Source: Ascochyta rabiei (lineage: Eukaryota; Ascomycota; Dothideomycetes; Pleosporales; Didymellaceae). From it: a stretch of DNA of 64,000 nucleotides. Below the pieces are notes generated by a model. That model ran no database searches, was not told the DNA's origin, and worked only from the letters and a program-made list of their open reading frames with translations. The stretch covers positions 310,001 to 374,000 of the forward strand of contig NC_082419.1 of NCBI RefSeq assembly GCF_004011695.2. Direction: 5' to 3'. Shown here one piece after another: positions 1,404 to 64,000 of this stretch. The position numbers were made by a program, and so were the translations under genes. Position 1 is the first letter of the stretch, and each line of letters opens with the position of its first letter.

Positions 1404-1489
1404 GGTCACGCCCAATTGCGGCGAACTGTCCGTCTGAGAGGGATCGCTGCTGCATCATTCGGTCGCTACGGACAAAACCTGCGCCCGGC

Positions 1490-3995: not shown

Positions 3996-5765
3996 ATGTC
4001 GGGGGCAACTGCAGCAAAAGGAAAGAAGCAGGCAAACAAGAACGCCTATAGGCGCGCGAAGAAGAAGGCACATCGCTCTGTGAGCTCTTCCAAACCTAGA
4101 AATTGCTCCCGCAAAGCCATGCTAATGAAGACACAGGAGACACCATCCGAAGCTGGCGACTCTGCGCGTGAGAGCGAATCCGCTGAACCAGAAAGCGACA
4201 CCAATAACGATGTACAGGCGGTGAAGTCTGCGGACTTGGTTGACGTCGACGACATCGCGAATCAGTACGATCTAGACAACCCGCTGTTCGAGCAGTATAA
4301 AGACATATTTGAGAAGTTTAGAGAACGAACTGAGGAGGAGGTTGCTACCAAAGACGAAGAAAAGCCGGAGATCTACTACAGCGACAATGACGACGTCAGC
4401 GAGGAAGAGGATGGCACACCAAAGATCTCTAAGAAACAGCGGAAGGCCATGAGCAAGCTCTCAGTTGCTCAGTTGAAGTCTTTGGTCAACAAACCCGAGC
4501 TGGTAGAATGGACTGACGTGTCTTCCTCGGACCCGCAGCTATTAGTGGCCATCAAAGGAGCCAAAAACGTCATCCCTGTACCGACGCATTGGTCTCTGAA
4601 GCGAGAGTACCTGTCCTCGAAGCGAGGTATCGAGAAGCCGCCTTTTGCGCTGCCGAAGTTCATTCAAGAGACTGGTATTGCCGAGATGCGTGATGCTGTC
4701 CTTGAGAAGCAGGCAGAGATGACGATGCGACAAAAGCAGCGTGAGCGCGTTCAAGGAAAGCTCGGCAAACTCGATATCGATTACTCGAAGCTTTACGACG
4801 CTTTCTTCCGACGACAGACGAAGCCCGAGTTGACACGGTACGGAGAGGTATATTACGAAGGCAAGGAGTTCGAGACCAACCTCGTGAACCTCAAGCCGGG
4901 CGAATTGAGCGAGGAGCTGAGAGAGGCCCTCGGCATGGCACCTGGCCACCCACCGCCATGGCTTATCAACATGCAACGTTTTGGCCCGTCACCTTCCTAT
5001 CCCAACATGCGCATTCCCGGTGTCAATGCGCCCATTCCTCCAGGCGCTTCTTGGGGATTCCAGCCCGGCCAGTGGGGTAAACCTCCAACCGACGATGCCG
5101 GTCGACCGCTGTTTGGTGGCGATCTCTATGGTACCAGCGTTCTCGAGGAGCAGCAGCAGCCCACACACGAAGGTGAGCCCGTTGAGCGCACAACATGGGG
5201 CGTATTGCGCGCTGAAGGCGAGAGTGAGGACGAAGAGAGCGACGAAGAGGAGGATGAGGATGAAGAAGAGGAGGACGAAGAGGAGGACGCAAGTGGGATT
5301 CAGACGTCGATGACTGGCGCTGCATCTGCCATGCCATCGGAGATTGGTGGCACAGAAAGCATTGGTGGCGAGTTCACACTTCGCAAGCAGCGTAAAGGTA
5401 TCGAAACCGAAGAACCAGGTGCACCGCGAAGCGCATACCAAGTCCTTCCTCAGAAGAACATTTCGGCATCGGGTTTCTTCGGTGGCGAGCACGCTTACGA
5501 TCTCGATGCAGCGAAGAGGGACCAGCTCGGAGCGGCGCAGAGGAAACGAAAGGTGGGCGATGTTGACATCTCTGTGGACGTGGACCAGTTGGCGGATAGC
5601 GACAAGCTGGACAAGGATGCTCTGAAGAAGGAGTACGAGTCGAGGCAGCGAGCGGAAGCTGCAGGACAGTGGCAAAGCATTGATCAAGACGATCTGGCCG
5701 ACATGATAGCGTCGGAGAGCAGAAAGAGGGTCAAGAGGGAATCAGAACGTGGTGGCAAGCGGTAG
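3996..5765 (+). CDS. CUS1: U2 snRNP splicing factor SF3B subunit 2 (Cus1/SAP145)
   Basis: One uninterrupted exon of 589 codons from the first ATG (3996, MSGATAAKGKK) to TAG. The order of features is that of SF3B2: a basic Lys-rich N-terminus; an acidic middle; the conserved DUF382 block (ELVEWTDVSSSDPQLLVAIKG, then NVIPVPTHWSLKREYLSSKRG); the PSP proline-rich block (the Tyr/Glu-rich run YGEVYYEGKEFE, then LGMAPGHPPPWLINMQRFGPSPSYPNMRIPGVNAPIPPGASWG, read here in pieces); an acidic run around 5230-5290; and a charged tail. The protein helps tether the U2 snRNP to the branch-point region. It acts in the nucleus with SF3B4 and SF3B1. TAG is used as the normal stop, which shows the code is standard. 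Confidence 0.96.
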   Translation: MSGATAAKGKKQANKNAYRRAKKKAHRSVSSSKPRNCSRKAMLMKTQETPSEAGDSARESESAEPESDTNNDVQAVKSADLVDVDDIANQYDLDNPLFEQYKDIFEKFRERTEEEVATKDEEKPEIYYSDNDDVSEEEDGTPKISKKQRKAMSKLSVAQLKSLVNKPELVEWTDVSSSDPQLLVAIKGAKNVIPVPTHWSLKREYLSSKRGIEKPPFALPKFIQETGIAEMRDAVLEKQAEMTMRQKQRERVQGKLGKLDIDYSKLYDAFFRRQTKPELTRYGEVYYEGKEFETNLVNLKPGELSEELREALGMAPGHPPPWLINMQRFGPSPSYPNMRIPGVNAPIPPGASWGFQPGQWGKPPTDDAGRPLFGGDLYGTSVLEEQQQPTHEGEPVERTTWGVLRAEGESEDEESDEEEDEDEEEEDEEEDASGIQTSMTGAASAMPSEIGGTESIGGEFTLRKQRKGIETEEPGAPRSAYQVLPQKNISASGFFGGEHAYDLDAAKRDQLGAAQRKRKVGDVDISVDVDQLADSDKLDKDALKKEYESRQRAEAAGQWQSIDQDDLADMIASESRKRVKRESERGGKR

Positions 5766-6096
5766 AAGGAGGAAGAGGTGGATCTCTGTACGAAAGAAGT
5801 CGCGGCTGCATGATTGGAGAGCTCAACGTTGAGCCGGCGTTATGGGGTTCCAAGGGGTTCTTAGGGTTCGCTGCCAGCATTGGGATACGGCGTTATGCAC
5901 GACAGCCAGCAAGAACGTGTGCAATGAACAGAGTTGAGCTTCCGAAAGTCCAGTCTTGCCGGCTGATTGGGGGTGAGATGAAGCTCACAGTGACAAAGAC
6001 GCCCCAGCTGGAAGATACGGCCACGATTGCGCGCCCGAATGAGCTGTTGCTGAGGATGCAGACGTTGCGAAGTGAAGCGGGAGGATAGCGACGTAC

Positions 6097-6219
6097 TCGA
6101 GATTCGAGATTCGAGATTCGAGATTCGAGATTCGAGATTCAAGATTCAAGGTCCAAGGCTCAGATTCGAGATTCAAGATTCAAGATCCAAGGATCAGATT
6201 CAAGGTTCAAGGTTCAAGT
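6097..6219. repeat. 7-bp tandem repeat (GATTCGA family)
   Basis: Seven-base units of the GAGATTC type repeat nearly perfectly from about 6097 to 6150, then continue to 6219 as degenerate units (GATTCAA, GATCCAA, GGTTCAA). The gradient from exact to decayed copies suggests growth by slippage at one end. Confidence 0.9.
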
Positions 6220-6524
6220 GACGCGAACTGGTAGGAAAGTTGCGCAAAGACCATCACATCGTCCTGCAGCCAGTCGACGATCTACGGCCATGCACCACCG
6301 CCTACCTCTGCTTCGAACCTCCACGCCGCAGGTAGTGATCACCGATACAGTCGACAAGCGAGAGACGAGGCAGAAGAAGCTTGAGACGACGCTCGAAATA
6401 AGGTTTCCATGGCTCGTTGGTTCCACCGCGACCGCTGAGAGCTCGTGATCGACGTGCATACACGTGACGCAGGGCGTTGTTCGCGTGTCAAAGCCTTGGC
6501 CCGAACTTTCCACTTTCCACTTTC

Positions 6525-6569
6525 AACAGTCGACTTTCAACAGTCGACTTTCAACAGTCGACTTTCAAC
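6525..6569. repeat. 14-bp tandem repeat (CTTTCAACAGTCGA)
   Basis: About three consecutive copies of a 14-base unit containing CAGTCGAC, preceded by two shorter TTTCCAC units. It lies about 200 bp upstream of the RS-rich protein start, in the presumed promoter or 5' leader. Confidence 0.9.
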
Positions 6570-6679
6570 TTGGCTGCCCAGCTCGACCACGTACAATCGC
6601 CAGGCACCAGCACCAATCGTCCAGAACGCCATATATACGGGTAGAATCTCACTTGCTGTTCGTCACCGTGTGAGACTGT

Positions 6680-6742
<63 letters not shown>
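6680..6742. repeat. (CAAG)n microsatellite
   Basis: About fifteen perfect copies of the tetranucleotide end about 20 bp before the ATG at 6764, so the tract is probably in the transcribed 5' leader. It has no stop in one frame on the minus strand, which creates an artificial CLLACLLA-type frame that is not a gene. Confidence 0.95.
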
Positions 6743-6763
6743 TCCGAGTGGGTCGAGGCAATC

Positions 6764-8638
6764 ATGGATCGAGACCGCGAGAGAGAGCGAGACCGAAGGT
6801 TTGTCAAGCCGACACCATCGTACGCGCGCCAACCGAGCAGCCCCCGCTTGCAGTGCACGCAACAAGCACCCTCGCGCAACAGCAACTGACTTGACGTGGT
6901 GCGCAGGGACGACCGGTACTCGAATACGTACAGACCACGTTCCCCCCGGCCCCGAAGCCGCTCCCCAGGGCCTCGCGCGGACAGCTACCGCGCAGGCCGA
7001 TCGCCGCCCCGCCGCAGCTCTCCGCCTCCGCGACGAGGGTCGCCACCCCGCCGTGGTCTCGCCTCGGCCGACACGTACACGCCGGGAGGCAACAGTCGCC
7101 CGTCGCGGCCCAGGACTCGCTCGCCCGTCTTCAGGAGACGATCGCGCAGCCCGCGCCGAGACGACAGCTGGAGGGCCAGGCCGCGCTCGCCGCCCCGCCG
7201 CGCCTTCTCCCCGCGACGAGACGACTTCAGGAACGAGCGGGCGAGGTCGCCGCCCCGGAGAGACGGCTATGATTCGTACATCCGCTCGCCGCGCCCGCGC
7301 GAAAGGTCGCCGCCGCCCAGGACGCGTGAAGCCTCGCCCGCTAGGAGCAGGGGTGTGCGTTCGCCTGTGAGGGCGGCTCGATACGACGAGCCGCGCTCGC
7401 GCATCACCAGGTATGCACCGCCCACCGCTGCTGGAGCGAAGCCGCACATGGCTAACTGGACCAGTCCGAGACGCACTTCCCCTCCCCCCCGCGACAACCG
7501 TGACTTCCGCCGCCGCTCGCCCTCGCCGCGACGCGAGCGCGCCGACCCATACACAGCAGACACATGGCGAAGCCGCAGGTCGCCTTCAGCCCGGCCTGCA
7601 TTCACCTCCAACGAACCCTCGGGCGTGCAGTCTGCGGCAACCTCGCGGAGGTCCTCCCCTCGACCGACCGTCCACCCCAGCAGGGCCGCTCTTGTAGACG
7701 ACAGGCCAGCCAGAGAGCCCGTGTCCGCGCCCAGGTCGCCGTTCCGCGAACGAGAAAGCAGCAGAGCGCCCCGCGACAACTTCCGCGAGAGGGAGAGGGA
7801 GAGGGAGAGGGAGCGGGAGCGATCACCGCCTCGACGCAGGGAGGCCAGCCCGATGCGAGAAAGGAGTCCACCGCGGAGACGGGACGCCAGCCCTCCACGA
7901 GGACCAAGGGGCGACAGAGACAGGGAGTTTGCACCCCCTACTGGACCTTCGTCTGCCCGCCGCGACGGCGACTTCCCAAGGGCACCTCCTACAGGGCCGT
8001 CCAGCCGTAGCTATCCTTCGCCCGCCCTCTCACCGCCGGTTGGGCCTGCAAGCTCGGCACCGACGGCACCACCCGCCGGCCCTCGAGGCGGTAATCCCGC
8101 GCTCAGTGCGCCTACCAGGCCTCGCGGCGGCGGGCGAGGCGGCTATCCATACGACGCACCACGCGACTTCTCTGGCCCACCACGCCGGGGATCGTGGGGT
8201 GCTGGCCCTCGCGGCGGCGGTGAGTTCCGTGGTGGCTTTCGCGGTGGCTTCCACGACGGCCCTCCCTCAGGCCCTCGGGGCTCTGCGAGCGGGCCGTCGA
8301 GCTTCTCAGCCACGTTCCGCGGCTCCAACAACTCGACCGCGACGACGTATCCGCGCACCATGCGTTTCCGGGACCATCTTGCTGATTTGCCCAAGGAGAT
8401 GCCAGGAGGCCAGAGGGCGCCTGAGGTGTACGACAAGAGCAAGATCCTGCGACTGGAAGAGGAGGCCAGGAAGCTGCGTGACCTTATCGACAAGAAGGAA
8501 GACGCGAAGAGAGCCAAGCTTCGGGAGTGGGATGCGCTGGAGAGGGATGCCGAGACGGCGCAGCTTCGCGTCGATCTGGCAGAGCAGTCGTTGAGAAACC
8601 TGAATGGCGAGACGGAGGTCGGAGGGGCTGCTTTCTAG
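6764..8638 (+). CDS. Arg/Ser-rich nuclear protein with C-terminal coiled coil
   Basis: Exon 1 is 6764-6798 (MDRDRERERDR), followed by a 108-bp intron and exon 2 at 6907-8638; total about 588 residues. The first two thirds are RS/RD/SPPR repeats (SPPRR, RSPSPRR, RERERERERERER at about 7785-7815). A Gly/Arg/Pro-rich RGG-like part follows (RGGGRGGYP, FRGGFRGGF). The last ~100 residues are a globular-to-coiled-coil tail beginning FRDHLADLPKEMPGG and running into LEEEARKLRDLIDKKEDAKR. RS and RGG composition suggests a role in pre-mRNA processing or speckle-type assemblies. No RRM is visible, so it is not a classical SR protein. GC content is clearly higher than in its neighbours because of CGN codons. 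Confidence 0.8.
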
Positions 8639-47305: not shown

Positions 47306-48629
47306 CTAGAAGATCGCAGTCCCGTTGACATGCGAACTGACACCTCCTGGGCAGTTTGCTGGCGCACTCGTGAAGAAGAAGGTCCACCTGTTCTTTTCTC
47401 TGCAAGTCTGTGCCAGTTTCTCCAAATCAAGCATTTCTCCCAACGGCATTCCTGTCATGTGTTAGAACGTCTACTCGGTGAAAGCCAGGTCACGGCCAGA
47501 ATAGCAGCTGCGACTTACCCCAGAGTGCCAGGATGTATTCCTGTCGTGTGTCAGAATGTGTAAACAGTGATAACAGAGCTACGGTTCAAACGATGTGACT
47601 TACATGTAAGTGATAATCTTCGTGCGTCGGCCATGCTTCAAATGCTGGTGCATCACCACCGACTGTTGCGAAGTAGCAATCATGCAACCAATCTAAAATC
47701 TTCTGTTCCTGACTCACACCAGCATACCGTGCGCCGTCCTCGCCATTGGGACCGTGGCGCTTCGCGGCTTTTGTTCTGTCATCATCAGACTTGCTGTCGT
47801 ACGCTTCCTTCCAACCTGATCGAATGAACAACATGTCTCCAATCTTGATATCACCACCCTGGGCTGCTGGACGGATATCGATACCTTGATCTTTTCCGCA
47901 CTGATACAGTTCCTCCCATGAGATGGGGTAGTAATCATAAGGATCGTAGTTGATGCCTTTTTTGTGCGCATAGCCTCGGTAATCAAGCAGGATTCCGCGG
48001 CCTGCTACACCGTGCTCGGCCCAGTGGTGAATGGAACACTTGTGGTTCGCGGACGGCCCGGCAATATCAGAGCCTTTGGTCCCGTTGTAGAACGATCCAG
48101 TGGGGATGTGGGCAAAGTGGCGGAAGCCATCCCATTGAGTTCCGGATTGCGTATTTAAGTGGTAGAGGTCGTCATATGCGATGCCTTCCAGGAGGGTCTT
48201 GATCTCGTGCTTGAATGTTTCGCGGCCAAATGCTGGCTGCCCGGGAACATTCAAGGGAAGACTGAAGTCCATTCAGTAATGTTTCGGTGATAGTAGTTGG
48301 CTTCACTGACTTGACAGGTACGATCTCACCAGATCTGATCTCTTTGGCAGCAGCAGCTACGCGTGTGGGTGTGAGGAGGTTCAGACGGCCGATCTGCTAG
48401 TGATGAATATATGCCAACGTCACACGCAATTGTCAAATCGTACATAGTCATCGTTGCCCCATACCCAAGCAGCTTCTTTGGGTGCCCCCGGGATGTCAGG
48501 AAGCTCACTTCTGGTAGGGAACTTGGTGGAATTCGGATCCCACGGTATAGTCGTGGCAGTTTTGTTCATGGTCAAGAAGTCGGTGATCTGCGTCAAGCGC
48601 GAGTTGGCGGTGTTCTTTGGGTCTGCCAT
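47306..48629 (-). CDS. Cyclase-family (kynurenine formamidase-like) metal hydrolase
   Basis: Five exons on the minus strand: 48629-48444, 48396-48311, 48261-47604, 47540-47519 (only 22 bp) and 47451-47306. All phases agree; 365 residues. The family text is RLNLLTPTRVAAAAKEI, LPLNVPGQPAFGRE, HLNTQSGTQWDGFRHF, then DMLFIRSGWKEAY, EAWPTHEDYHLHEYILALWG and ANCPGGVSSHVNGTAIF. In bacterial kynurenine formamidases the metal motif is HxGTHxDxPxH. Here the motif reads SGTQWDGFRH, with Gln for the second His, as in the fungal branch of the family. The product could hydrolyse or cyclise a small amide or lactone; the substrate is unknown. The unspliced third exon would end at VSHIV, so the 22-bp micro-exon is needed. 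Confidence 0.88.
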
Positions 48630-49017
48630 TGTGATGATCTGTTGAAGTCTCTCGGACTTGGGTAAAATGGTAACGCAAACCAGAAAAGTCAAGAAATGAA
48701 GCCATATAATATACCCCACTAGTGCCTACGTAATGACAGTCGCCCCGCATTTCTTCGCTGTTAGGAGCATTGTCAACATCGAACCGCCGAGGCATCCAAG
48801 TTGTGGGGTCACCTTGCCGCGCCGATCTGACTTTCGTTAGCTGACTCGGCTTGTCAGAGCCCTACAATGGTATTCGCAATGGCAGTTTCTGCGATAATGC
48901 AGAATCTGGAACGCGGTGGAGCTTTGTAAGGTTCTGCTTCGAGTCGAACGAAGATAGGTCTGTTTATGTGTGAGACCATCCATGCGCGCGAAGCATGACG
49001 TAACGCCTGTGCGATCT
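48630..49017. other. Flank of the mobile-element block
   Basis: Normal-composition DNA from the cyclase start to the left edge of the mobile block. Composition changes within about 100 bp after 49,080 from ordinary to about 70% A+T. Confidence 0.7.
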
Positions 49018-49026
49018 GAAGCTCGG
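49018..49026. repeat. 9-bp target-site duplication, left (GAAGCTCGG)
   Basis: Exact direct copy of the nine bases at 62240-62248, immediately outside the terminal inverted repeats. Confidence 0.8.
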
Positions 49027-49067
49027 GAGGCATCAGGTCATCGGACCATGAGATTTAGAGGGCGGAC
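49027..49067 (+). repeat. Left terminal inverted repeat
   Basis: 41 bp that reads GAGGCATCAGGTCATCGG and so on, matching the reverse complement of 62199-62239 at 38 of 41 positions. The 33 bases from 49035 on are identical. It is less mutated than the interior. Confidence 0.85.
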
Positions 49068-50083
49068 CATAGTCTAAGCCGCATAGAGTGGCGCTAAGAC
49101 TAAAGCAATATTAGCGCGCTAGGCACTAGAACATATTTATAACATATTTTTAAGACATTTTATGTAAAATAATAATATAAAAATTTTTTATAACTATAAC
49201 TACTACTAATACTACTAGCATAGCTGCCTAGCAAGCTACTACCTAGCTTAATAGCAACATATATCTTAAAGAATATCTTAGAAATATATTTCTAATATAT
49301 TATAGGTAAACTATAAGAATTATTATACTTTCTACTACCTACTATATAGCTGTCTAGCCCTTACTTTTAACACTATAGGCAGCCTGTTTATCTATATTAG
49401 AGAGGTCTTCTACTAAGAGGACCTAAAAGGCAGAAACCTTTATAGTGTAAGAATAAACCTAGAATATTTTTTTAATATATTTTAACTTTATATAGTAATA
49501 ACTTAGTAGGTAAAGTATACTATGTACCTATATTCTAGGCTAGTATAGCTATATATAGCTAGCGCCCTCTTTATACAGTACTAGCTACCTACCTACTATA
49601 GAGTACTAGTAAGTACTATATAAGTCTAAATACTATAATATATTTTTAATATATTCTAAGTTTATTATAGTTTAGTATAATGCTATTATAACTACCTACT
49701 GTAATATTAAGGCCTAGATATACTAGCAGCAGCTAGCCCTTACCTAAGCCTAAGGCCTACAGCCCCCTCCCTAGCTAGCAATCCTCTAGCTAGATAGTAG
49801 TGTAAGTGCAACATCTTCTAAACATATTTCTAGCTTATTTTAGTACATCTACTAAATATCTTTTAGCTTAATATTATTTATATAGCTACTGCTGTAGGTA
49901 CGCTTAGTAGAGCTAACCTCTACCCTAACTATAACTAGTTAGAATACCTAAGTTAGTTTTTCTATAATATGCTTTTAACAGGTTTCTAATATATTTTAGC
50001 CTATATCTTTTTTACTAAGAGTAGTTTAGCCTATAAGAACTGCAATCTGTAGGTAGGCCTACTAGCTGTAGAAGAAAAGGATA

Positions 50084-50140
50084 ATAACAATAACAATAAC
50101 AATAATAATAATAATAACAATAATAATAATAATAATAATT
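50084..50140. repeat. (AATAAC)n/(AAT)n microsatellite
   Basis: Alternating AATAAC and AAT units, about 57 bp, within the left arm. It may be a slippage product in already AT-rich DNA. Confidence 0.85.
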
Positions 50141-50222
50141 AGGAGGAGGATAGGGGAGATAATAAGGAGAACCTAATATCTATTAGGTCCTCTGTCCTCT
50201 CCTCTATCCCCTCTAACCTTAC
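50141..50222. repeat. Imperfect hairpin (82 bp)
   Basis: GAGGATAGGGGAGA near the left end is mirrored by TCTCCTCTATCCCCTC near the right end, with an inner stem ACCTAAT/ATTAGGT around a short loop at about 50170-50188. It could fold as DNA or RNA and it escapes much of the local AT bias. Confidence 0.7.
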
Positions 50223-50331
50223 TAGCCCTTAAACACGTTTATAACGTGTTCCTAGCTTATTTTCTATACTATAGTTATATATAATTATAAAATTAAGTAT
50301 AGTTACTTAAGATTTCTCTTTAGGTATTTAA

Positions 50332-50336
50332 GAAAT
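50332..50336. repeat. 5-bp target-site duplication, left (GAAAT)
   Basis: Directly before the TG of the 5' LTR and identical to 57631-57635 after the 3' LTR. Confidence 0.9.
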
Positions 50337-50538
50337 TGTTAGGCGCTAGGCCTGGGGGTACCTCTGCTAGTCTTGGCGAGCTACTATAGGGCTAGCCAGC
50401 CCAGACTATATAAAGGTGTTAGAGGTTATTACTAATACTCTAGTAATTAGTCTTATTACTACATACTACGTACCTTAATACACCTGCTATCCTCTTTAAC
50501 CCTATCCTCTCTTGTAATTACTTTGTATACTCTTTATA
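50337..50538 (+). repeat. 5' LTR (202 bp)
   Basis: Begins TGTTAGGCGC and ends CTCTTTATA; the 3' copy begins TATTAGGCGC and ends CTCTTTACA, so the ancestral ends were TG...CA and RIP altered one end of each. Both copies are exactly 202 bp. ACTATATAAAGG in the LTR is a TATA-like promoter element. Confidence 0.93.
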
Positions 50539-50929
50539 TTCTAATTACTCTTATATTATAATTAAAGATAGACCTAAGCTACTATAAGTCTTAAACTAAA
50601 TTATCTAGGCTTACTGTCTTTAGAGAGGGACTAAGACAACCTACCTGTAGGAGAGCTGGTAGAGCGTAAGGTAACACCTCCCTCTGCAGATAAGGAGATA
50701 CCTTAACAGACACTAAGTGTCTATAGTGCCTTAAGAGGATCTATAGGTCCTCTAGGCAGTATATCTTACCTTAGAATTTGCATCTATAGGGCAGCTTTAG
50801 CTAGAGAAGGCTAGAATAGCCTAGAAGTAGGTAATTAATAACAGGAGTTAGAAAACTTGCGTAACTAGTTATAAGAGACAAAAGACTATAAGGAACTTTC
50901 CTCTTTCTATAAACTTAGACGCAAATACA

Positions 50930-51890
50930 ACAAAGGAGATCTAGTAATAATCCTATCCTTCTAAAAAGTACTAGAAGGGGTAGAGAAACTACAATCTTCC
51001 CTATCTATAAACCTTCTATAACCTAAACCCCTATAGAAGTACGTAAAGCGCAACTGCGCTAAATACAACTATTAGGAGAAAGATTGTAAGAGATACTTCT
51101 TCTAATCTCTAGTTAATTTCCTTATAGAGGAATAAAAGATTAACTTTAGCGTAAGGTACCTCTTAGAGAACCTAAAGATGTTGTAGCAGGCCTACTGCAT
51201 AACTAACTGCTGTAATTAGCTAACCTAGGAACTAACATAGTAAGAGCTAAAAAGAATTATACTAGACGCTTTAGAAATGCTAGCTAAACGCAAGTAAGCA
51301 GTATACAAATCCTTAAAGTAATACAAGTAGTAGAAATTTTAGTCCCCTATAGATCTGTTAGATTTTATACGTCTACTATAGGAGGAACTAGGCAACTTAT
51401 ATACGCTAGAGCTTTAAGTCCTAGAATATATTGCTGTACTACTCCCTAGTATATAAAAGGACTTATTTCTTATCTTCTATAATTAAAGGGACACAATCCT
51501 AAAGGTAGAGGAACAAGCTAATATTATTAACTAGAGACTGGGTTAGTATAGCTAACAGCTACCTAAGAAGACTCTAGCTAAGGGTAAGATAACTAACAAA
51601 GGACTACAGAAGCGCTAATTTAGTAACTCTAGGTTAGAGGGGAATACAAAAACCCTAAAAAAGTTATTTAAGTTTAAGAAGTTCTGTAAGGAGCTAGTAA
51701 AGGGTAAAAAGGGCTAAGATAGGCTATATAAGACCTAAAACGCGTGCCTTAAGTATAGAGAAACTAGTTACTACTGCCCTAACTACCTAAAGCTAAAGTT
51801 AAACTAGAAAGACCCTGCTCTAGATAAGTTAGGAAAAGACAAGGGACCTAAGAGCTAATCTCCTCTCTTGTAGCCTATATTAAATTGTCT
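50930..51890 (+). pseudogene. Decayed gag with ruined CCHC zinc knuckle
   Basis: The charged, Lys-rich capsid/nucleocapsid region ends in a zinc-knuckle footprint at 51745-51786. C-x2-C-x4-H-x4-C is read with Cys in position 1 but Tyr at positions 4, 9 and 14. Each Tyr is one transition from the expected Cys or His (TGY or CAY to TAY), exactly the RIP-type change. Gag would package the element's RNA; this copy cannot. Confidence 0.75.
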
Positions 51891-51969
51891 AATAAGAAGA
51901 AGGAGAATATCTCTCTTTATAAGGTAGTGTACCTAGAATATATATGCCTACTTATAGTTAAAGCATCTA

Positions 51970-52160
51970 TAGGCAACGCAGAGAATGTAGAAGCCTTAAT
52001 AGATAGAGGGTTATAACTAAACTTAATTTTAGTTCTCCTAGTAAAGGAGCAGGATCTAGAGGTTATACTATTAAATAAAATAGTAGCTAAAGGTGTAGGC
52101 AGAGCAGAATTGCCTATCTATAGAGTAACTATAGCAGAAGTATCTATTATTAACTCCTGT
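51970..52160 (+). pseudogene. Decayed aspartic protease domain
   Basis: Around 51990-52030 the text ALIDRG, a stop, LNLI lies where retroelement proteases have their D-S/T-G catalytic loop. The middle residue is Arg here. It is followed at the usual distance by the RT region. Confidence 0.6.
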
Positions 52161-52639
52161 AGAAGATAGGAGGTCTAACAGATACCTTTTATAGTTACAG
52201 ACCTATAAAGGTACAAGATATACCTTAGATTACCCTAGATTAACTAGATAAACCCTAAGCTAAGCTATTTAAGCTAGTGTATGCTCTTCTAAGGGAAGAA
52301 GTATAAGGACTCTCCTAAACTAGAGAAAATAGCGTTAGAAGATGCTAAAGAGTTTAAACACACTATAAGAAGTCCCTTAGTAGACGTTTATATATATATA
52401 GTAAACTTAGTAGGTATACATAACCTAATATCTGCTAAAAAGAGCCTAATTCTAGAAGTGTATTGCGAATATGCGCACTTAGGATTAGAGGATAATGCTT
52501 AGGTCCTACTAGAGTATAGAGAGCACAACCTAGCAATTAATATTACAGAAGGAGCTACTTCCCCCTACTAACTGTTATATAGTCTATCTGTAACAGAATT
52601 AGAGATACTTAGGAAGTATCTAGCAGAATATCTACAACG

Positions 52640-53200
52640 TGGCTAGATATAACACTTAAGGTTGCCAGCAGGGGCGCCTATTTTCTTTTTAAAGAAGAAA
52701 GATAGCAACCTATAACTGTGTGTAGACTATAGAGGTCTAAACAAGATAACAGTTAAAAACTACTATCTATTGCTACTAATTACAGAGTTACTAGAACAAC
52801 TAGTGTAAGCTAAGTTTTATACTAAACTAGATATACATAAGGCATATTACTATATCTAAATTAAGGAAGGGGATAAGTAGAAGACTGCTTTTTAAACTAG
52901 GTATAGACATTTTAAGTATATAGTAATGCTGTTTAGACTTATAAATGCTCCTGCCTAATTTCAGGCCTATATAAACAAGGCACTAATAGGATTAGTTAAT
53001 GTAACTTATATTATGTATCTAGACAACATATTAGTATACTCTAAGACAGAGGAAGACTATATTAGACATATTAAGAAGGTCTTAGAGAGGCTTTGCAAAG
53101 CAAACCTCTATATACGCTTAGATAAGTGTAAATAGCACTGTTAACGTATAGAGTACCTTAGGTATATAGTCTTACCTAAAGGGGTAAGTATTAACCTAGA
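52640..53200 (+). pseudogene. Decayed reverse transcriptase domain
   Basis: Recognisable gypsy RT blocks are LPAGAPIFFLKKKD, LCVDYRGLNKITVKN, FYTKLDIHKAY and FKYIVMLFRLINAPA. The catalytic box at 53016-53027 reads Tyr-Leu-Asp-Asn in place of Tyr-x-Asp-Asp (second Asp GAC to AAC, a G-to-A change). Six or more in-frame stops interrupt it. Confidence 0.9.
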
Positions 53201-53439
53201 CAGGGTTAAAACAATCTAAGAATAGCTAATCCTGCGCATAGTTTGTAATATCTAAGTATTTATAGGCTTTATAAACTACTATTAGAGATTTATTACAGGG
53301 TTTTCTAAATTAGCCTTGCTATTAACCTAATTAACCTAGAAAGGGCTAAATTTAGCTAAATCTAGTTAAGTAATAAGGAAGGAGGAGAGTTAGCCTCTTA
53401 AGCTAAGCAAAGAATCCCTATAAGCTTTCTAGAATATAA

Positions 53440-53770
53440 AGGATTTATTTATTAACGTACCTATCTTAGTTTATTTTGTACCTAGGAGACAGACTAGGAT
53501 TAAAGTAGATACCTCTAGAGGCGCTATCTTAGGAATCCTTAGTTAACTAGTCCCTAGGGAGGGGAAGCTGGCCTAATAGAGGCCTGTAGACTTCTATTTA
53601 AAGAAGTTAATCTAAGCAGAGTATAACTATAATACTTACAACTAGGAACTTCTTATAATTGTCTAGAGCCTACAGCATTAGCAAAGATACTTAGACAGTA
53701 CCTTCTTTAAGATCTTAATAGATTACTAAAACCTAAAATAGTTTATAGAGACAAAGGTTCTTAGCTATTA
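53440..53770 (+). pseudogene. Decayed RNase H domain
   Basis: Text such as VDTSRGAILGILS and the AEYNYNTYN-type segment (original E and Y positions) matches the Ty3-type RNase H after RT, with TAG stops between. Confidence 0.7.
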
Positions 53771-54234
53771 GTAAGTAAGGGCATACTTAGTGTTATCTAA
53801 GTTTAACTTTATAATTACTTATTACCTAGGGTCTACAAACCCTATAGATAGACCCTTACAGTGTCCTAATTACATAAGAGAGGCGTAAGACCCCTTATAA
53901 AAGTATAATAAGGCTTTTATATAACCGCTTTAGGAGATCCTAACTAGAAGGAACCCTAATACTCCCCTAGTAGTGGCTATAACCCTCTGTTTGTCCGTAA
54001 AAGGAAGAAAGGACATAAGGGATCTTAAAAGAGAAGAATTAAGAGAGAACAGTTAGACAGAGCTAACAACAGACTTAGACAACACAGACAAACTCTCTAG
54101 CACTAAAAAAGAGTTAAGCAACGTTAAAATAGGACAAAATAACCTAGAAAAAGATAATATAGCTAAGGAGAGGTGTATCTTAATTATAAGGCTAAAAGAT
54201 AAAGTGTAAGTTATTAAAGAACGTTATAATAACC

Positions 54235-54960
54235 TAATATTAGGACACTTTAGAGCACAAAGGACCTTAGAGAAGATTTAGCGCAGATATACCTAGAGGG
54301 GCATTAATAAGGATGTATCTAACTACTACTACAACTGCTTAGTATATAGGAGATTAACTACTACCTAATACAAACCATATAGGTTATTATAACCTTTACT
54401 AGTGCTAAGCTAACTATAGAAGGACGTAATAATAGATTTTATTATAGAACTACCCCCTAGCAAGGTGGCTAGGCTAGTGTATAACTTAATATTAGTAGTA
54501 GTGTACAAATTAACTAAAATATTACACTACATACCAGCTAGGGCTAATTAGGATAGAAAAGACCTGGCAAATACCTAGATTAGAGAAATTATCTACTTAC
54601 ACAGCGCGCTAGCACAAATTATCTTAGATTAGGGGCTGCTAATGAACTTAAAGACGTAGGAAACCTTTAACTACTATTTAAACTTAAGACAAGTCTTAAC
54701 GTTAGCCTATTATCCCTAGACAGATAGCTAAACAGAAAGGCAAAATTAGACTCTTAAACAGTACTTACGTTGCTACTATACTCTAGAATAAGATAATTAG
54801 GCCCTATAAATTTTAATTGTAGAATTTGTATATAATAATAGCATTTACGTATCTATAAATGTAACACCTTTCTAAGCCTGTTATAGTATAGATCTAAGGA
54901 GTATAGATTAGCCTACTTTAGTATTAAAAGGTAGAGAATCTCCCCTTGTAAAGGAATTAG
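54235..54960 (+). pseudogene. Decayed integrase with recognisable D,D,E core
   Basis: The zinc-binding and linker region (GHFRAQRTLEKI) is followed by VIIDFIIELPP (first Asp), an LD-stop-G box (second Asp; Arg/Trp codon lost), and T-E-R-Q-N (Glu) before FVYNNSIYVSIN. The D,D(~35),E layout of retroviral-type integrase is preserved as a footprint. Stops are TAG or TAA. Confidence 0.85.
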
Positions 54961-55324
54961 CTGCTAGAGTTATTGCCTTACAGGCTACCTGCAAAGTAAA
55001 TATAGAAAAGTTAAACAAGTATTAAAAGAAACACTTAGATAAGAAACAACTACTAGCACCCTTTAAAGTAGGCGATAAAGTACTAGTCTCTAGTAAGAAC
55101 ATTAGGACAGTACGCCTAAAAAAGAAGCTAGACTAGAAATACCTAGGACCTAGGACTATTATAGCCTAGATTAGGCCTAGTGTATATAGAGTAGACCTGC
55201 TAGGAATAAAAGGGATCTATCTAGTATTCTATGCGTTACTGCTAGACCTATACACACTAAGAAGTTAACTCCTATCTATATAGGAACAAATACAAGAACC
55301 TATAGTTAAAGGGGAAGAGAAGGT

Positions 55325-55460
55325 GTAGGATATAGAAAAAGTCCTTAATAGAAGGTAACTAGACAATAGACAGTAGGAATACCTTATTAAGTAGGACAGA
55401 TTCCCTAAATTAGAAAACTTCTAGGAAATTAGTACAAATCTTTCTAAAGAAGTGCTAAAA
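55325..55460 (+). pseudogene. Decayed chromodomain at the integrase C-terminus
   Basis: The text DIEKVLNRR, then EYLIK and DRFPKLENF...ISTNLSKEVLKQ matches a chromodomain, with two Trp positions now stops. Chromodomains steer chromoviral integration to heterochromatin. Confidence 0.8.
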
Positions 55461-55599
55461 CAATAGTAGAAAACTATAAAGTAACTGCTTAGACTGCGTA
55501 ATAAGACATTAAGGTTAAAGTCTAAAAAAGAGGGGGACTAAAAAGGCTAAATACCTTTACTTAATTATAATTTTTCCCTATAGGGGTTTTTTAATTAAT

Positions 55600-57428
55600 A
55601 AGTGTTTAATAGTTTACGCTAAGGGAAAATATAACCCTACCTTACCCTAAGAAATACAGACTAGCTAAAGCAGATATCTTTTAGCCTATTATAGCTATTT
55701 CTAATATAAGGAGATAAAGAAAGTTACACGCTATATTATATAGTTATAATTATAAGTAAATATAGGAGAATTAGTATAGAAGAACACCTTTCTAGTATTA
55801 TTTAGACTATCTAAGAGTGTAATACACCTAATTGCCATATTAGCCTAATACTGTCTACTAACTACAAACTTAGGTATTATTAATCTAAACCTTCTATTAT
55901 AAGGAATATCTACTAACTATAACTACTACTATAGGTATAAGTGGTAGCCTTACAACTACTATAAGGCTTCTTAGCAGCAGCAGCAGCAGCAGCAGCATTA
56001 GCGGCAGCCTGTTCAGCAGCCTCCTGCTCCTCCTGCTCCTCCTAGAGTTAACTAAGGGTCTTTCTAGTGCTAGCAATATGGTACTTTAACTAAAAGAAGT
56101 TAGACATTGTTAAAACAGGTTAAAACATGCTATAATACCTTCTTGCAGGGGGTAATAGGCGCATCTAGATTAGACCTACTACTGCTTTCCTCTAACATCT
56201 TCTTTTGCTTTATCTTAGCCTTAACAGCGCTAGCCTTAGATTAATCTTACTTCTTAATATAGATGCTAGACAAGGTTAACTTATGTGTGTAAGTGTTGCT
56301 ATTATAGAGTATAAGTAGCTCTTTCTATAGTAAATAGTTCCTATAAAGGTTAGATTATGCTGTAATAAGCTAAAACGCGTTAGAACGTACTCTTAAATTA
56401 TACCTAGCAATAAGCTGGCCTAGTTAATAATAGACTTGCCTATTGCAGTCTTCTTGTTAAGGGATATAGGCGTAGTAGTAGCAGGTGTTGCAGGGGTAGT
56501 CTTAACTCTAGCAGCATTAATAATAGCAGCATAAGCAGTAGTAACTAGGTAACAACTAGAGTAAAGGCGCGCTATGTTGCTAGAAAGCCTTAAATAGCTG
56601 TTAGCGTACTTATTAGGGCCCTAAATATGTTAAAAGATACTAAAACAAGCTAAAAGGAGATAAAACACGTACTAATAGGCAATTCTTGTTGCTATTATAA
56701 CACTCTCTATAGTAGTAGGCCTAGGCTTCCCTATAGTGCAGGCTACCCTATAAAGCTAGGTTAGTAGAGAAATAACAGTCCCTATAGACATTACTATTAG
56801 CAATATAGTAGAGATATAGCATACAGCACTGCTTAGCAGTCCTACTATTCTTAGTAATGTTAATCTTGCAGTAGGCAGGCATTAACATAACAGCTATAGC
56901 AAATAGTAGTTAGTAACAGTTAGAAATAGTTAGTAGTAGGTAGTAGCGGTTAGGAGCAGTCTAAAGAGGTTACTAGGGCGTAATGTACAGTGCTATCTGC
57001 TAAAACGTGTTAGAACGTGCTAGAAAGACCTAGAAAATCCCTTAGCTATCCTTATAAAAGTGCTAGACAGAATAGGTTAGTACTTACTAAAACAAAGTAG
57101 GATATAGTAGTAACTAATAGAACTAGGGGTATAGATAGCTTATATGCTGCCAGCTACCTAGTTAGAGCTTTAGCCTGCGCAGATAGCTGCCTAGACCCTA
57201 GAGGTAAAGTAAGAGGTAAGAGAGGATTTCTGTTTAACTTTTACTAGGTAAAGGCAGAATTAGTATTAAGCCCTATCTAGCCTTACAAGGCGTCTAAAAC
57301 GCCTAAACCTAGTTAGAATTAGCTATAACAGGACAGACAGAGTAAACACGTCTAAAGCTAGGCTAAAATAATACAGTATTGCTAATTATACTATTGTTTA
57401 AGCTAAACAATCTAGAGAAGGAAGGCAT
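55600..57428. other. 1.8-kb 3' non-coding part of the retroelement with antisense coding trace
   Basis: This is longer than the usual 3' region of a chromovirus. On the minus strand an ATG at about 56107 opens a frame that continues through TAG/TAA-interrupted text (MSNFF, stop, LKYHIASTRKTLS) into EEQEEQEAAEQ and an Ala7 run with KKP (55965-56045). Upstream of that ATG are three intron-like motifs. The + strand carries no sense frame after the chromodomain. Confidence 0.55.
55977..56043. repeat. CAG/CTCCTG triplet tract spared by RIP
   Basis: Eight CAG units, then CAGCAGCCTCCTG and CTCCTG repeats, sit in DNA where CAG elsewhere has become TAG. On the minus strand it encodes Gln/Glu/Ala runs. 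Confidence 0.85.
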
Positions 57429-57630
57429 TATTAGGCGCTGGGCCTAGGGGTACCTCTGCTAGTCTTAGTAAGCTACTATAGGGCTAGCCAGCCTAGACTA
57501 TATAAAGGTGTTAGAGGTTATTGCTAATACTCTAGTAATTAGTCTTGTCACTACATACTACGTACCTCAATACACCTGCTATCCTCTTTAACCCTATCCT
57601 CCCTCGTAATCGCTTTGTACACTCTTTACA
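57429..57630 (+). repeat. 3' LTR (202 bp)
   Basis: Begins TATTAGGCGC (TG lost by G-to-A) and ends CTCTTTACA. It aligns end to end with 50337-50538 without indels by my reading, differing mainly by transitions. Confidence 0.93.
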
Positions 57631-57635
57631 GAAAT
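57631..57635. repeat. 5-bp target-site duplication, right (GAAAT)
   Basis: Matches 50332-50336 exactly. It shows the insertion was a normal integration and that the two LTRs belong to one element. Confidence 0.9.
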
Positions 57636-57639
57636 ATAG

Positions 57640-60600
57640 AAAGCCTAATGTGTGTATTATATCTTAAAGAATTACTTAGAAATATACTAATTTTTAAATA
57701 AGTATTCTAATATCTATTAGTAGGTAAATATATTATAAATATATTCTATATAAACTTACCTTTAAGATATAACTTCTTATAGTTTTGATATAGGTAGAGA
57801 ATACTATTTCCTTTTAATATCCTAGCACATTCTTTATAGTTTAGCTGTCCCTTCTTTTTACCTAATTTTACGTTACTAGATTAGTAGAGTAGGTACTTAA
57901 ATATAAGCTTTCCTTTTAGTATATTTCTCTTAAAATATATTTAAGGAATCTTTAGTGCTAGTTTAACTATAGTAAGGCTATCCTCTACTAAAAGACTATC
58001 TATAGAAGCTGTAGGTAGGCTAAACTATTATATAGGCATATCTAGAATACGTTTAGGTTAAACCTGTTTATTATTATCTGTAATAGGTCCTAGGGGCAAG
58101 GTAGGTTAAGGAGAACATGTTTTAGACACGTTCTTAGTCTATTCTAGGTTAGAAGCAGAATAAGCTTTTAGAATACTGTAGTGCTGCTTTATTATATTAT
58201 AAAAGAAGTTAAGAGCTTTATGCTCTTAATAAACAGTAGACTAGCTAGTCTGTTAGGCTGCAGGCTTATAGTCTAAATAATACTTCTTAAGATAGGTAAT
58301 AAGCCTACCTTAATTACTAAATTTCTACTAAATATATTAGTAATATAGTATAAAAATATTATTAAAGTATACTCTATAAAGTTAGTTCTTATATATAACA
58401 GCCTAATAGAACAACTCTCCTTCGTAGATAATAAGTTCTCCCTGCTTGTTATACTTACTAAACCCTACTAACCTAAAAGGTAATATTAGTAGAGTAGCAT
58501 ACTTATAGTATAAAGGCTAAATATATTAGGAATATATTTATAGTATATTTATATAAGCTTATATAAAGTAAGAGAGTCTTAATACCTATATAGTAGAAGA
58601 GTAAAAAGAAGTATTTAATAGTTAGTAGTAGAAAGGAAGGTAGTTTATTAAGACATGCTAATTCTTTACTTCTACTAGCATTAAATTTTTTTTACTAAAC
58701 TAAGCCTACTTAAGGAGTAGGGAAACGTAGCTAGAACATGTTTTAAACACGTTCTTATAGCTAAAGTTCTTTCTTAAGTTACTACATAGCTAGCTCTCTT
58801 CTTTAAATATTAAGCTTCTGCTCCTTTATATAAAGAGTGTCCTCTCTTTGCTTAATATCCTACTCCTAAACTTCTTTTTTAAATTAAGCTTTCTCCTACT
58901 TCTGTTTAAACTCTTATATCTTATTCTATAGTTAAGATGCTAATTAAGTATTACTAGATTAAGGTATTTAGAACATGTTTTTAACGCATTTTATGTAATA
59001 TACCTAACTTAAGTCTCTAGTTAAGTAAGAGATTCTCTTAGTGTACTTTTAATTTGCAGATATCCTAAATCTTTTCTTCTTTTCCTTTATTTAATATAGC
59101 TAGAAGAATTGGCTTATAAAAGAGCTAGTATATCTTTATCCTTACTCTTATAAGTTAGATTAAATACTTCCTACTCTACTACTCTTTCTTAGCGTCCTAA
59201 AACATATTTAGAATATACTTCCTACCTATTATATAGACAGCACTTACTCTTCTTATAACCTATATTATTATAGAAATATTAACTTAGGCTTAGTATACCT
59301 TAATTATTATATCTATTTCTATATTAATTTCTATTTATCTACTCCTAAACATCTTAAAGGTCTATTTATATAGCACTGCTCTAAACATATTAGTAACACG
59401 TTTAAGGCCTATTTACACATCTTACCTTTTAACTCTAGCTAGGAGCTGTAGCTATTAGCTAGTCTAATAACCCTTTAACTTAGCCTACTTAGCTGCATTT
59501 AAATATAATTCTAACCTATCCTAAATTTATTTTAGGATAAAGCTATATACTTAAATAAGACTAGCAGCTATAACCTAATTTTTCTTATATTTAACCTAGT
59601 TAAACATAGTAGATAAAAATTTAGTAGCTAATAGAAATTAATTAGATATATTTAAATATCTAGAAAGAGTTTTATTATTAGTACTTATACTAAAGAAGAT
59701 TGCACAGCTTATAGTACTTAGCAGCTGTTTTAATATTAAGTAGAGACTTTAAGTGTCCCTATAATAAGTTCTTAATATATTCTGTCTATAGATATTCTTA
59801 ATCTATACTTTATAGAAAGTAGATATTATAGAATTATATATAACTTATTAGTTACTACTACTATAGTTAATTAGAAGGATTAATTAAAGAGAGATATCTT
59901 CTAAATCCTAAAATTTGTTAAAGGCGTGTTTAAGCAACGTTAGAGTAACTTACTAGCTATCTGCTTGCTATCTATGTTAATAGTAGTTCTATAGAACCTA
60001 TTTGTATAAAGATAGTACTACTAAATAGATATACTAGCTCTTTTAGTAATCTTTATAAAGAATAGCTTAAACTAACTCTTATATATCTAGCTTTGTTATA
60101 AGTTAGTAATAATTTAGCTACAAGTAAAAACTAGAACTAGGTTAGAACGTGCTCTTAAGGTGTTATAAATTAATTATACTTTTTCTATAGTTAGGTAAAA
60201 AGACAGTAAAGAGAACCTCTAACTATTCTCCTGTAAGTCTCTTGACTAACATGTCTATTTAAAATATCTGCTACTTAATAAAGATTTTTGCCTATTTATT
60301 ATAAAAGTAGATAATACTTATCCTAGCTATAGAGGTTATAATATATTAAATATATACCTAGTATACATAAATATCTTTAAAATAAGTTAAAGGTATATTA
60401 ACTTACTATTATAGGTTCCTAATATTTAAGTCTCTACTTAAATAGAACACCTTTAATATCTCTACTATATAGAAACTAAGTAAGCTTCTCCTTATTAATA
60501 AGACATATAATATAATCTTTATTAATAAAGGTAGTACTTAGATCCTTAATTAAATAGAATCTATAGCTAGCAAGATATGTAACTAGCTAAGGTAAATTTA

Positions 60601-62160
60601 AGAAGTCTGCTAAATATATTAGTAATATATTATAGGTTACTTCTTAGTATATACATCTTAATGTCTAAGGAGTTAGTATTAGATAAAGAATATTTATAAT
60701 ATCTAGTATATAATCTAGTTCTATAATAAATAGAGAAAGAAGAGTATATAAATATGTTCTAAAGATAATAAGAATAAAGTATAGAGTATTTTCTAGATTA
60801 TCTAGAATAATTATATAAAATATAACTAGACAGTTACACTAACAAATAATCTAGCCCTATTCTTAAGGGTAGTTAACACCTGTTATACTTAGAACATACT
60901 TAGAACTTATTTCCTACTACTTACTATAGGTTTAGAGATTACCTATTATAGGCTTAATAACGTTATACTGCTCTCTACTATTCTCTTTATTCTCTAGTAT
61001 AGGGAGACTGTTCTAGAAGAGATCTACTAGATAGCTTACATCTACCTCCTTTTAAACCTATTAGAAAAGATGTTTTTTATCTATATTTAGTTAATATAAT
61101 CTATAAGTAATAAAGAACTTATATCTACTAATACCCTAAAACATATTAAGAATATATTTAACTATATTACATTATATCTAAACAGCTTACTTACCTACTC
61201 TTATTAGCGCCTAACCTATAGCTTGTATGTGTCCTTTTTTAGTATATAACACCCTTTATTAAACCTACAGTTAATACTAATATATAGCCTAAAGAAGATA
61301 TTAGTATAATATACTTAAAATATATATAGAACACGTTTATACACCTATACCTGCTTTTATTTAGTTATTAAAACTCTCTTAGAGACACTACTCTAAATCT
61401 TATAGAGATTGTTATATATCTCCTCTATAACCTTACTATATAAATACGCTTTTAATCTATTCTAAAGATATTTATAGTACTTAATACTAGTATACTTATA
61501 CTTCTATCTATAAGCATAGCTATTAAGAAATAGACAGAATATTAGTTATTTATATAATATTGCAGCCTTAGAGTACTAGAACTTAATTAAATATGTTAGA
61601 AACGTAGTAGAAACGTATTCTAGTAATATACCTAAGTTACTTATACTAGTACAGCTTCTTATATCTATAGTAATCTCTATATAATTTTAGTTAGCTAAAT
61701 AATATATATATACCTATCTTAAAGACCTTTTAGATATAGAGGCAGCGCTGTACTATACTTAAGCCTAACAGTATTAAAAGTAGTACCCTGTAAACTTCTA
61801 GGTATAAATTAGATCTTTGTCTATAATATATTAGAAATATATATAAAACACATTTATATCTACTATACCTAATTTCTCTCTTTACTACTCTAAATAACAC
61901 CTAGCTAAGTAGTAAGATCTATTTTAACTACTTCTAGAGTATTATAAAGACTAAAGCTACTCTCTTTTCTTTTATTACTATTATAGTTGCTGTTACTTAG
62001 GGTAGAATTAAATATATATAAAAGGTCTGCTATACTACAAAAATATATTCTTAATAGAACTAAAATATATTTAATTAAGTTATTAAGTAACTCTTAGTAA
62101 AAACTTATTACTATACCTAATATAGCTGTACTAGACTATGCTATCTTTTAGAGATCCCTG
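57640..62160 (-). pseudogene. Right arm of the DNA transposon: decayed multi-intron gene on the minus strand
   Basis: Minus-strand segments between intron-like motifs read as protein with only TAG/TAA breaks. Examples are LGKKKGQLNYKECARILKGN (57800-57880), GFSKYNKQGELIIYEGELF (58410-58470), a Lys/Glu coiled-coil stretch (58790-58930) and ASIDSLLVEDSLTIVKLALK (57940-58010). Best-formed intron: 57759 to 57714, 46 nt, GTAAGT...CTAATAG. Another runs from 60179 to 60137, starting GTATAA with TTCTAAC near its 3' end and CTAG. Because stops are all RIP-type, this was once a large gene of the 5.9-kb element. I recognise no transposase, helicase or recombinase motif. Confidence 0.5.
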
Positions 62161-62198
62161 CTAAAGCATGGTCGCCTGCCTATCTAGGTTTAGTTATA

Positions 62199-62239
62199 GT
62201 CCGCCCTCTAAATCTCATGGTCCGATGACCTGCTTCCTG
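62199..62239 (-). repeat. Right terminal inverted repeat
   Basis: Reverse complement reads CAGGAAGCAGGTCATCGG and matches the left repeat at 38 of 41 positions; inward of it a weaker match continues with RIP-type differences (GTCTAAGCC versus AACTAAACC). Confidence 0.85.
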
Positions 62240-62248
62240 GAAGCTCGG
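62240..62248. repeat. 9-bp target-site duplication, right (GAAGCTCGG)
   Basis: Exact copy of 49018-49026. Outside it the DNA returns to normal composition at once. Confidence 0.8.
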
Positions 62249-62970: not shown

Positions 62971-64000
62971 ATGCTTCGACATCTGCGATCGTTGTTGAAG
63001 GCTACCCTCCGACTTGGATTACCTATTTTGGCTTTCATCTTGATCTTTCACTTTCTGGAGCCTCTCAACAAGCAAATGCCGCCATCACCGTCTCAGGAGG
63101 TTGCATCCACTCTGCTTGCAGAAAATGGTCTTGACCTACTGTCAATATCATTATTGCAGTCGCTCTGGGCTGGATACGGGCAGATATGTCACGTCACTGC
63201 AGCCGATGGATTGGCTCCAGATTTCTTAGCTTCCCTGCCGGGAAATCTGAGGGACCCGCTCGTGAAAGAACACAGGGCCAAAATCGAGAAGCTGCGCAAG
63301 TCTTCGAAATCATATGCTGCGGATTCGACACCCCAACATACGCACTCCTTCATTCTCAAATTGATCACACCGCCACCAACAAGAGCAGGAGATGAGGGCC
63401 ACACCAGGAAGATCTTGAGCTACCAAGTTGAACAGTATTTTTACAGTCACTTAGCACCACAGCTGCCTGCGTCTGTGTTCGTCGCAAAGTGTCTGGCGAG
63501 CATCAACAAACACCACTCGGATGGTACTTCTACCACCGCTATGATCATGAGAGATTTGAAGCAAGAGTTTCCTGTGGCCGGCGAAAAGCGAGGGTCCTTA
63601 TCACGCACCCAAGTCAAAGCTGCACTAGACTGGCTGTCTGGATTCCATGGCTTCTGGTGGCCTCGAGTAGGTGATCTTGATCGCACCAAATTGGTGCTCC
63701 CACCGCTAGAGGAAGTCATGCATGATGGCCAAGATGCATCGGGCAAGACTGTCTGGCTCAACGGAGGGTACACCTACCTGGCTACGCGACGGAAAGAATA
63801 CGACGGCCTAGCAAACGACTACGAATCTGAGTGGAGAGAGGTATTGACAGAGCCGTCAGAAGGCCAGAGCCGTTCTATCTCGGAAATGGTCGCTGCGTTC
63901 CTCGCACCATCGGTGTCGGGACACGGTCCTATCGAACAGTACCAGACGTTGATTCACGGGGACGTCAAGTCAGAGAACCTCTTCACCAGTGAGTCGGGAG
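62971..64000 (+). CDS. Membrane-anchored aminoglycoside/choline-kinase-like phosphotransferase (partial)
   Basis: The frame is open from the ATG at 62971 to the window edge (343 codons), so the gene is incomplete at its 3' end. The N-terminus MLRHLRSLLKATLRLG followed by LPILAFILIFHFL is a signal anchor; a second ATG at 63076 (MPPSPSQEVASTLL) would give a soluble form. The kinase text includes HSFILKLITPP (the Lys of the N-lobe), a Met-rich hinge TTAMIMRDLKQEF, DWLSGFHGFWW and the catalytic loop TLIHGDVKSENLF, which fits the APH/EcKinase-type HGD-x-x-x-x-N motif. Such enzymes phosphorylate small molecules such as choline, ecdysteroids or aminoglycosides. The substrate is unknown. Confidence 0.8.
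   Translation, partial: MLRHLRSLLKATLRLGLPILAFILIFHFLEPLNKQMPPSPSQEVASTLLAENGLDLLSISLLQSLWAGYGQICHVTAADGLAPDFLASLPGNLRDPLVKEHRAKIEKLRKSSKSYAADSTPQHTHSFILKLITPPPTRAGDEGHTRKILSYQVEQYFYSHLAPQLPASVFVAKCLASINKHHSDGTSTTAMIMRDLKQEFPVAGEKRGSLSRTQVKAALDWLSGFHGFWWPRVGDLDRTKLVLPPLEEVMHDGQDASGKTVWLNGGYTYLATRRKEYDGLANDYESEWREVLTEPSEGQSRSISEMVAAFLAPSVSGHGPIEQYQTLIHGDVKSENLFTSESG

Follow-up and report, generated by a model that had tools for sequence, protein, structure and literature searches.

The 64,000-nucleotide window analysed here (positions 310,001 to 374,000 of contig NC_082419.1 of Ascochyta rabiei) contains at 49027-62239 a block which is one copy of a class II DNA transposon with terminal inverted repeats (TIRs), next to a box of the CRE/ATF type (cAMP response element/activating transcription factor). 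The copies of this family share their ends, made staggered insertions of 9-10 bp, inserted independently and lie in register with such a box. Two perfect copies of GAAGCTCGG directly flank the inverted repeats, which are 93 % complementary over 44 nt (Table 1), and the GC content changes at both borders from approximately 50 % outside to 22-35 % inside. A first-pass annotation had described the block as a single TIR element that has a 9-bp duplication and contains a nested retroelement, with a switch in composition at its borders and a length of 5.9 kb once the retroelement was taken out. This description holds and is now based on many independent copies, the core being 5,914 bp by subtraction (13,213 - 7,294 - 5). 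The box at 48996-49003, outside the left boundary, was not mentioned there and is the main point of this report.

A single genome of 40.9 Mb in 23 contigs was searched, and the match counts are lower bounds. Sites were gathered by the TIR only; the copy in this window is called C15. Both the left 183 bp used as a query and a 28-nt TIR pattern allowing three mismatches at most found at least 22 matches. The main family has at least ten copies with two ends (C15, C21, C8, C3, C22, C9, C20, C6, C5a and C4) and at least two right-end fragments (C5b and C11), and a looser TIR pattern added two relatives, C2 and C13. A query with the C2 end matched C2, C13, one main-family end and a 33-bp stretch at C5:230418-230450. 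Altogether 12 left and 13 right ends, including those in this window, were read at 14 sites. All 12 main-family right ends read CTGCTTCCTG, and eight of the ten left ends begin with GAGGCATC, one of them (C9) then being without 8 nt; the deviating left ends are that of C5a, GAGGCATT, and that of C20, mutated to CACATATT. The relative C2 starts with GAGGCATC and C13 with GAAGCATC, C13 ending in CTTCTG. C2 is represented by a left end in gene-rich DNA, and C13 (C13:322850-323450) is a miniature element of 591 bp. Because the same ends recur at other genomic sites, the terminal repeats of the block are beyond chance, and in several independent copies a target duplication of constant length adjoins the TIRs, as in a TIR DNA transposon. 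Copies running past the positions corresponding to 49027 or 62239 had been named in the first-pass annotation as a refutation; no copy does so. Both TIRs also hold AGGTCA 8 bp from the end (positions 9-14), one base off ACGTCA.

The search of the same genome with the TIR, proposed in the first-pass annotation, thus yielded more copies with independent 9-bp duplications, exact in six (C15, C8, C22, C9, C6 and C4). Duplications of 10 bp were found at C21 (exact), at C3 (with one mismatch) and on both sides of C13 (GAAGGAAGGA). C20 has no target duplication and a heavily mutated left end, and it may be a recombinant. At C5b, C11 and C2 one end each was visible. When the nine duplication columns were aligned over the sites, no consensus could be seen by eye.

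The regularity lies further out. If the first base of the duplication is outward position 1, counting away from the element, T(G/T)ACGTCA or a near match is found 14-16 bp past the duplication at all 14 insertion sites, on the left or the right flank. We take TGACGTCA to be a bZIP/CRE box. A one-mismatch rule (ACGTCA with at most one mismatch, starting at outward positions 26-28 on at least one flank; 25 flanks) is satisfied at 13 of the 14 sites, and the remaining site, C8, reads TGACGTAT, with TGACGT in register at outward positions 24-29. The gap between the 9-bp duplication and the octamer is 14 bp at eight sites and 15 and 16 bp at three sites each. In the box-aligned columns A is found at 11, C at 14, G at 13, T at 14, C at 13 and A at 12 of the 14 sites, and a T stands two bases before the hexamer at ten. 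The box is at the left end in C15, C3, C4 and C2, at the right end in C21, C8, C9, C20, C6, C5b, C11 and C13 (the last with GCGTCA at outward position 28), and at both ends in C22 and C5a, C22 having ACGTCA at position 26 on each flank.

The one-mismatch rule is satisfied by 2.9 % of positions in window 1-48000 and by 2.3 % of 14,400 local flank positions; at the background rate, 13 or more of 14 sites would be expected with P ~2e-19. As the rule was formed after inspection, an open scan of 4096 6-mers at 101 offsets was also made, and its maximum was 13, whereas 300 random sets of 14 host sites reached at most 7. These values bear on the explanation that there is no targeting, i.e. that the element inserts anywhere near CRE-rich gene DNA and the match reflects chance or survival bias. 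The sites are indeed gene-rich and many are apparently upstream of genes, but a preference for promoters does not explain the fixed offset of 26-28, and with the low rate in the local flanks and the results of the random host sets we consider this explanation highly improbable. In the genome TKACGTCA has 755 and 726 matches on the two strands, and the reversed control sequence is commoner (1359 and 1414); the window has two octamers, which is not above expectation, and one of them sits at this insertion.

The copy C5a (C5:733008-766141) has a 57-bp target duplication centred on TGACGTAA, which leaves 24 bp on one side and 25 bp on the other. Either a single integration had its ends joined on opposite sides of the box, or two oppositely placed insertion alleles recombined; on both readings the box is the reference point. 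The insertions are in register with a transcription-factor binding site, as in factor-tethered integration. Our interpretation, to which we give a probability of roughly 0.6, is that the block belongs to a low-copy family of TIR DNA transposons and that a CRE/ATF box sets the phase of their integration.

Several observations weigh against this interpretation. Five of the 14 boxes, all counted in, are weakened (C3 ACGTCG, C20 ACATCA, C6 TCGTCA, C11 and C13 GCGTCA), C8 is without the distal half of the box (TGACGTAT) and fails the one-mismatch rule, and at three sites (C5b, C11 and C2) there is one flank only. A transposase was not identified in the element. The control provided by a separate family of Mutator-like elements (MULEs) is small and not clean: the MULE m2 (C3:2458474) has GCGTCA at outward position 28, the same register, and the one-mismatch rule is satisfied at one of the four fully read MULE sites, for which the chance of at least one in four is about 11 %. 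Finally, the strict spacing could equally fit a box read by the transposase itself.

The MULE family belongs to the same genome and, like the TIR family, has 9-10 bp duplications (four elements read), TIRs and erosion by repeat-induced point mutation (RIP). It differs in the sequence of its TIRs, GGGAGTTGTTAACGTG, in a detectable MULE domain and in its surroundings: under an exact rule (TGACG facing the end at 16-36 bp), one of 18 exact ends and one of ten elements (m2) were positive, compared to 11 of 14 elements of the TIR family, in which C8, C3 and C20 fail (Fisher P 0.003). MULEs have target duplications of 8-11 bp, and the 9 bp found here fall within this range. It is possible, although we hold it to be somewhat doubtful, that the family is a Mutator-like transposon of the usual sort whose transposase has eroded beyond detection, and that the CRE rule is a property of the lineage. 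The 9-10 bp duplications, as in the MULE family of the same genome, agree with this. The TIRs differ, however (GAGGCATCAGG compared to GGGAGTTGTTAACGTG), and the 11 RIP-eroded matches of the PF10551 (MULE) profile in this genome all lie outside the TIR elements, in which full erosion could hide the domain; the scanned frames likewise gave no Pfam match. This explanation is compatible with the one we prefer and is not an alternative to the CRE rule. The first-pass annotation had inferred a Mutator-like transposon from the 9-bp duplication. As such a duplication alone is insufficient, the assignment is not proven; no MULE or other transposase domain was found, although under heavy RIP this is absence of evidence.

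The searches for coding content were made with stops translated as X. No Pfam match was found in six frames each of the right and left parts of C15, the only copy whose left part was scanned, and there was no Pfam match in 30 frames of the right parts of C3, C20, C22, C8 and C9 (C22 and C8 not quite whole). Three plus-strand frames of a part of C20 gave only chance Pfam matches far below the cut-off (Tim54, E 0.26; RIFIN, E 0.55), and when a single minus-strand frame of C20 was compared with proteins, none of the 7981 candidates scored had E <= 10. A DDE-type transposase was not detected in the scanned frames, in which RIP is heavy. Starships are defined by a captain tyrosine recombinase domain; none was found in the frames scanned by Pfam, where erosion is possible. 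A KDZ domain was not found either, and the target duplications are not the 8 bp of KDZ elements. The genome has nine bZIP matches above the cut-off, none of them within the TIR elements; one host bZIP gene lies at C2:644228-644401. The same treatment of stops still detected the eroded Gypsy element, and the profile search still detected eroded MULE matches. Because RIP is heavy, however, the absence of a transposase is not proven. The relatives C2 and C13 were considered as a source of an intact transposase and were rejected, C13 being a 591-bp miniature and C2 a left end only.

The large intron-rich gene proposed in the first-pass annotation did not find support, since all frames are full of stops and the reading-frame signal is weak. 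The longest stretch without a stop common to all copies is at most 83 codons. A purine/pyrimidine codon score reached 22.1 on the minus strand, where 100 simulations of the null gave at most 18.5, and 27.0 in the left part, at a run of AAY repeats; these signals are too weak for a gene call. Core pieces aligned to C15 are 90-96.5 % identical, and the 5921 core columns include 479 of the C/T and 473 of the A/G kind compared to 157 two-base columns of other kinds, an excess that is the mark of RIP. At the variable sites RIP amounts to 46-69 % per copy. The 773 TpA steps common to all copies with data, which bear on whether the family was non-autonomous from the outset, could reflect either an AT-rich ancestor or saturated RIP.

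If the box acts as we propose, a protein bound to it would keep the transpososome on a single face of the DNA, and the staggered cut would be centred approximately 22 bp (two helical turns) away from the middle of the box. Among the candidates, a host bZIP factor of the Atf1/CREB type, touched by the transposase, is the likeliest, and we regard a host factor of this class as the probable docking protein. The element would thereby be sent upstream of genes while the box is left in place, and the copies would later have been mutated by RIP and have received the Gypsy and other insertions. A more specific proposal is a eukaryotic cut-and-paste family that docks on the bound bZIP factor and so keeps its insertions at a fixed helical phase (~22 bp) from CRE/ATF boxes, approaching the palindrome from one side or the other and, in one copy, using both sides of the same box; for this we see the odds as even.

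Alternatively, the transposase itself may read the box, its own DNA-binding part recognising ACGTCA in the target with no need for a host protein. The spacing, varying by 2 bp over 14 sites, is tighter than expected of a loose tether, and the AGGTCA of both TIRs points away from the junction, as the box does, a likeness that may be due to chance. Direct reading nevertheless appears the less likely of the two serious candidates, because the motif is a classic bZIP box, a palindrome that is used from both sides, and Pfam detected no DNA-binding domain in the scanned frames of the element. In addition, Tf1 is known to be guided via such sites by a host factor (PMC7175516, PMC5371812).

The insertions lie in GC-balanced DNA beside genes, the gene models being assessed by eye. 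According to rough frame calls, at eight sites (C15, C21, C8, C3, C20, C4, C5b and C13; weak for C20) a frame reads away from the element on the side of the box; at two (C22 and C5a) there are boxes on both sides, at two (C9 and C6) the gene is opposite to the box, and C11 and C2 are ambiguous. Nine of ten frames matched Pfam, the C9 frame being without a match; among the nine, the MFS frame scored below its cut-off, and the F-box frame was without any single passing stretch. In this window both neighbouring genes read away from the element (Table 1), and the best named matches of the cyclase come from Pleosporales.

The retroelement nested in C15 is a Gypsy-type element of 7.3 kb with long terminal repeats (LTRs), spanning element coordinates 1312-8605 (window position = 49025 + element coordinate). 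Reverse transcriptase, RNase H and an integrase zinc domain were recognised when it was translated with stops as X, and a Tf2-1-like SH3 match fell slightly below the cut-off. The same Gypsy family is found at differing positions inside six of the ten copies (C15, C21, C8, C4, C6 and C9), which looks like a preference for AT-rich, RIP-mutated DNA. Other insertions were seen as well: C22 and C5a each have one of ~1.86 kb at almost the same place, near element position 170, and C3 has one of ~1.84 kb near position 1104.

Table 1 Features of the transposon copy and its surroundings (window coordinates)
Feature	Position	Strand	Remarks
TIR DNA transposon with nested element	49027-62239		13,213 bp; core ~5.9 kb; heavy RIP mutation
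Left target duplication, GAAGCTCGG	49018-49026		9 bp
Right target duplication, GAAGCTCGG	62240-62248		9 bp
Left TIR	49028-49071	+	93 % over 44 nt
Right TIR	62195-62238	-	pairs with 49028-49071
CRE/ATF box, TTACGTCA (TGACGTAA on +)	48996-49003	-	14 bp outside the left target duplication
Nested Gypsy-type LTR retroelement	50337-57630	+	LTR pair; protein domains; frames broken
Left target duplication of the Gypsy element, GAAAT	50332-50336		read by eye
Right target duplication of the Gypsy element, GAAAT	57631-57635		read by eye
Host cyclase gene, reads away from left end	47586-48632	-	model by eye; probable start ~397 bp from element
Host kinase-like gene (EcKL match), reads away from right end	62971-64000	+	cut by window; probable start ~731 bp from element

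If the interpretation is correct, this family of transposons follows the host's regulatory map almost to the base, and its elements sit beside response boxes without destroying them, which may explain the position of the copies next to genes. Factor-guided transposition would become testable in a new class of elements, and relatives could be found with a simple rule: a TIR, a 9-10 bp duplication and a CRE at position 26-28. A few retroelements are known to have their insertions phased by a transcription-factor site; for a TIR DNA transposon, no description of this was found in the open-licence literature searched.

Known systems offer partial parallels. In Tn7, the protein TnsD recognises a site that lies a fixed distance from the insertion point, and the TIR family likewise inserts at a fixed distance from a recognised site outside the duplicated bases. 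Tn7 differs in being bacterial, with a 5-bp duplication and one chromosomal site, and no relationship is claimed. The closest parallel is Tf1 of fission yeast. Atf1 binds TGACGT boxes. The Tf1 integrase binds Atf1, and Tf1, also a fungal element directed to promoters, is guided by Atf1 and Sap1 (PMC7175516, PMC5371812); the loss of Atf1 is described there as altering Tf1 targeting only modestly (PMC5371812). Tf1 is, however, an LTR retrotransposon with an integrase, whereas here a TIR DNA transposon keeps a spacing fixed within 2 bp. Zisupton and Dileera (KDZ) are fungal TIR elements with large genes as well, but with 8-bp duplications (PMC12730594), and no KDZ domain was found here. CSB-PGBD3, a domesticated piggyBac protein, is reported to be enriched at AP-1 (bZIP) motifs, presumably via the factor (PMC3459987). 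It differs from the TIR family in that binding and gene regulation are concerned, with no integration, and in that the contact is made through the CSB part; even so, its enrichment at AP-1 motifs shows that bZIP sites can attract a protein derived from a transposase.
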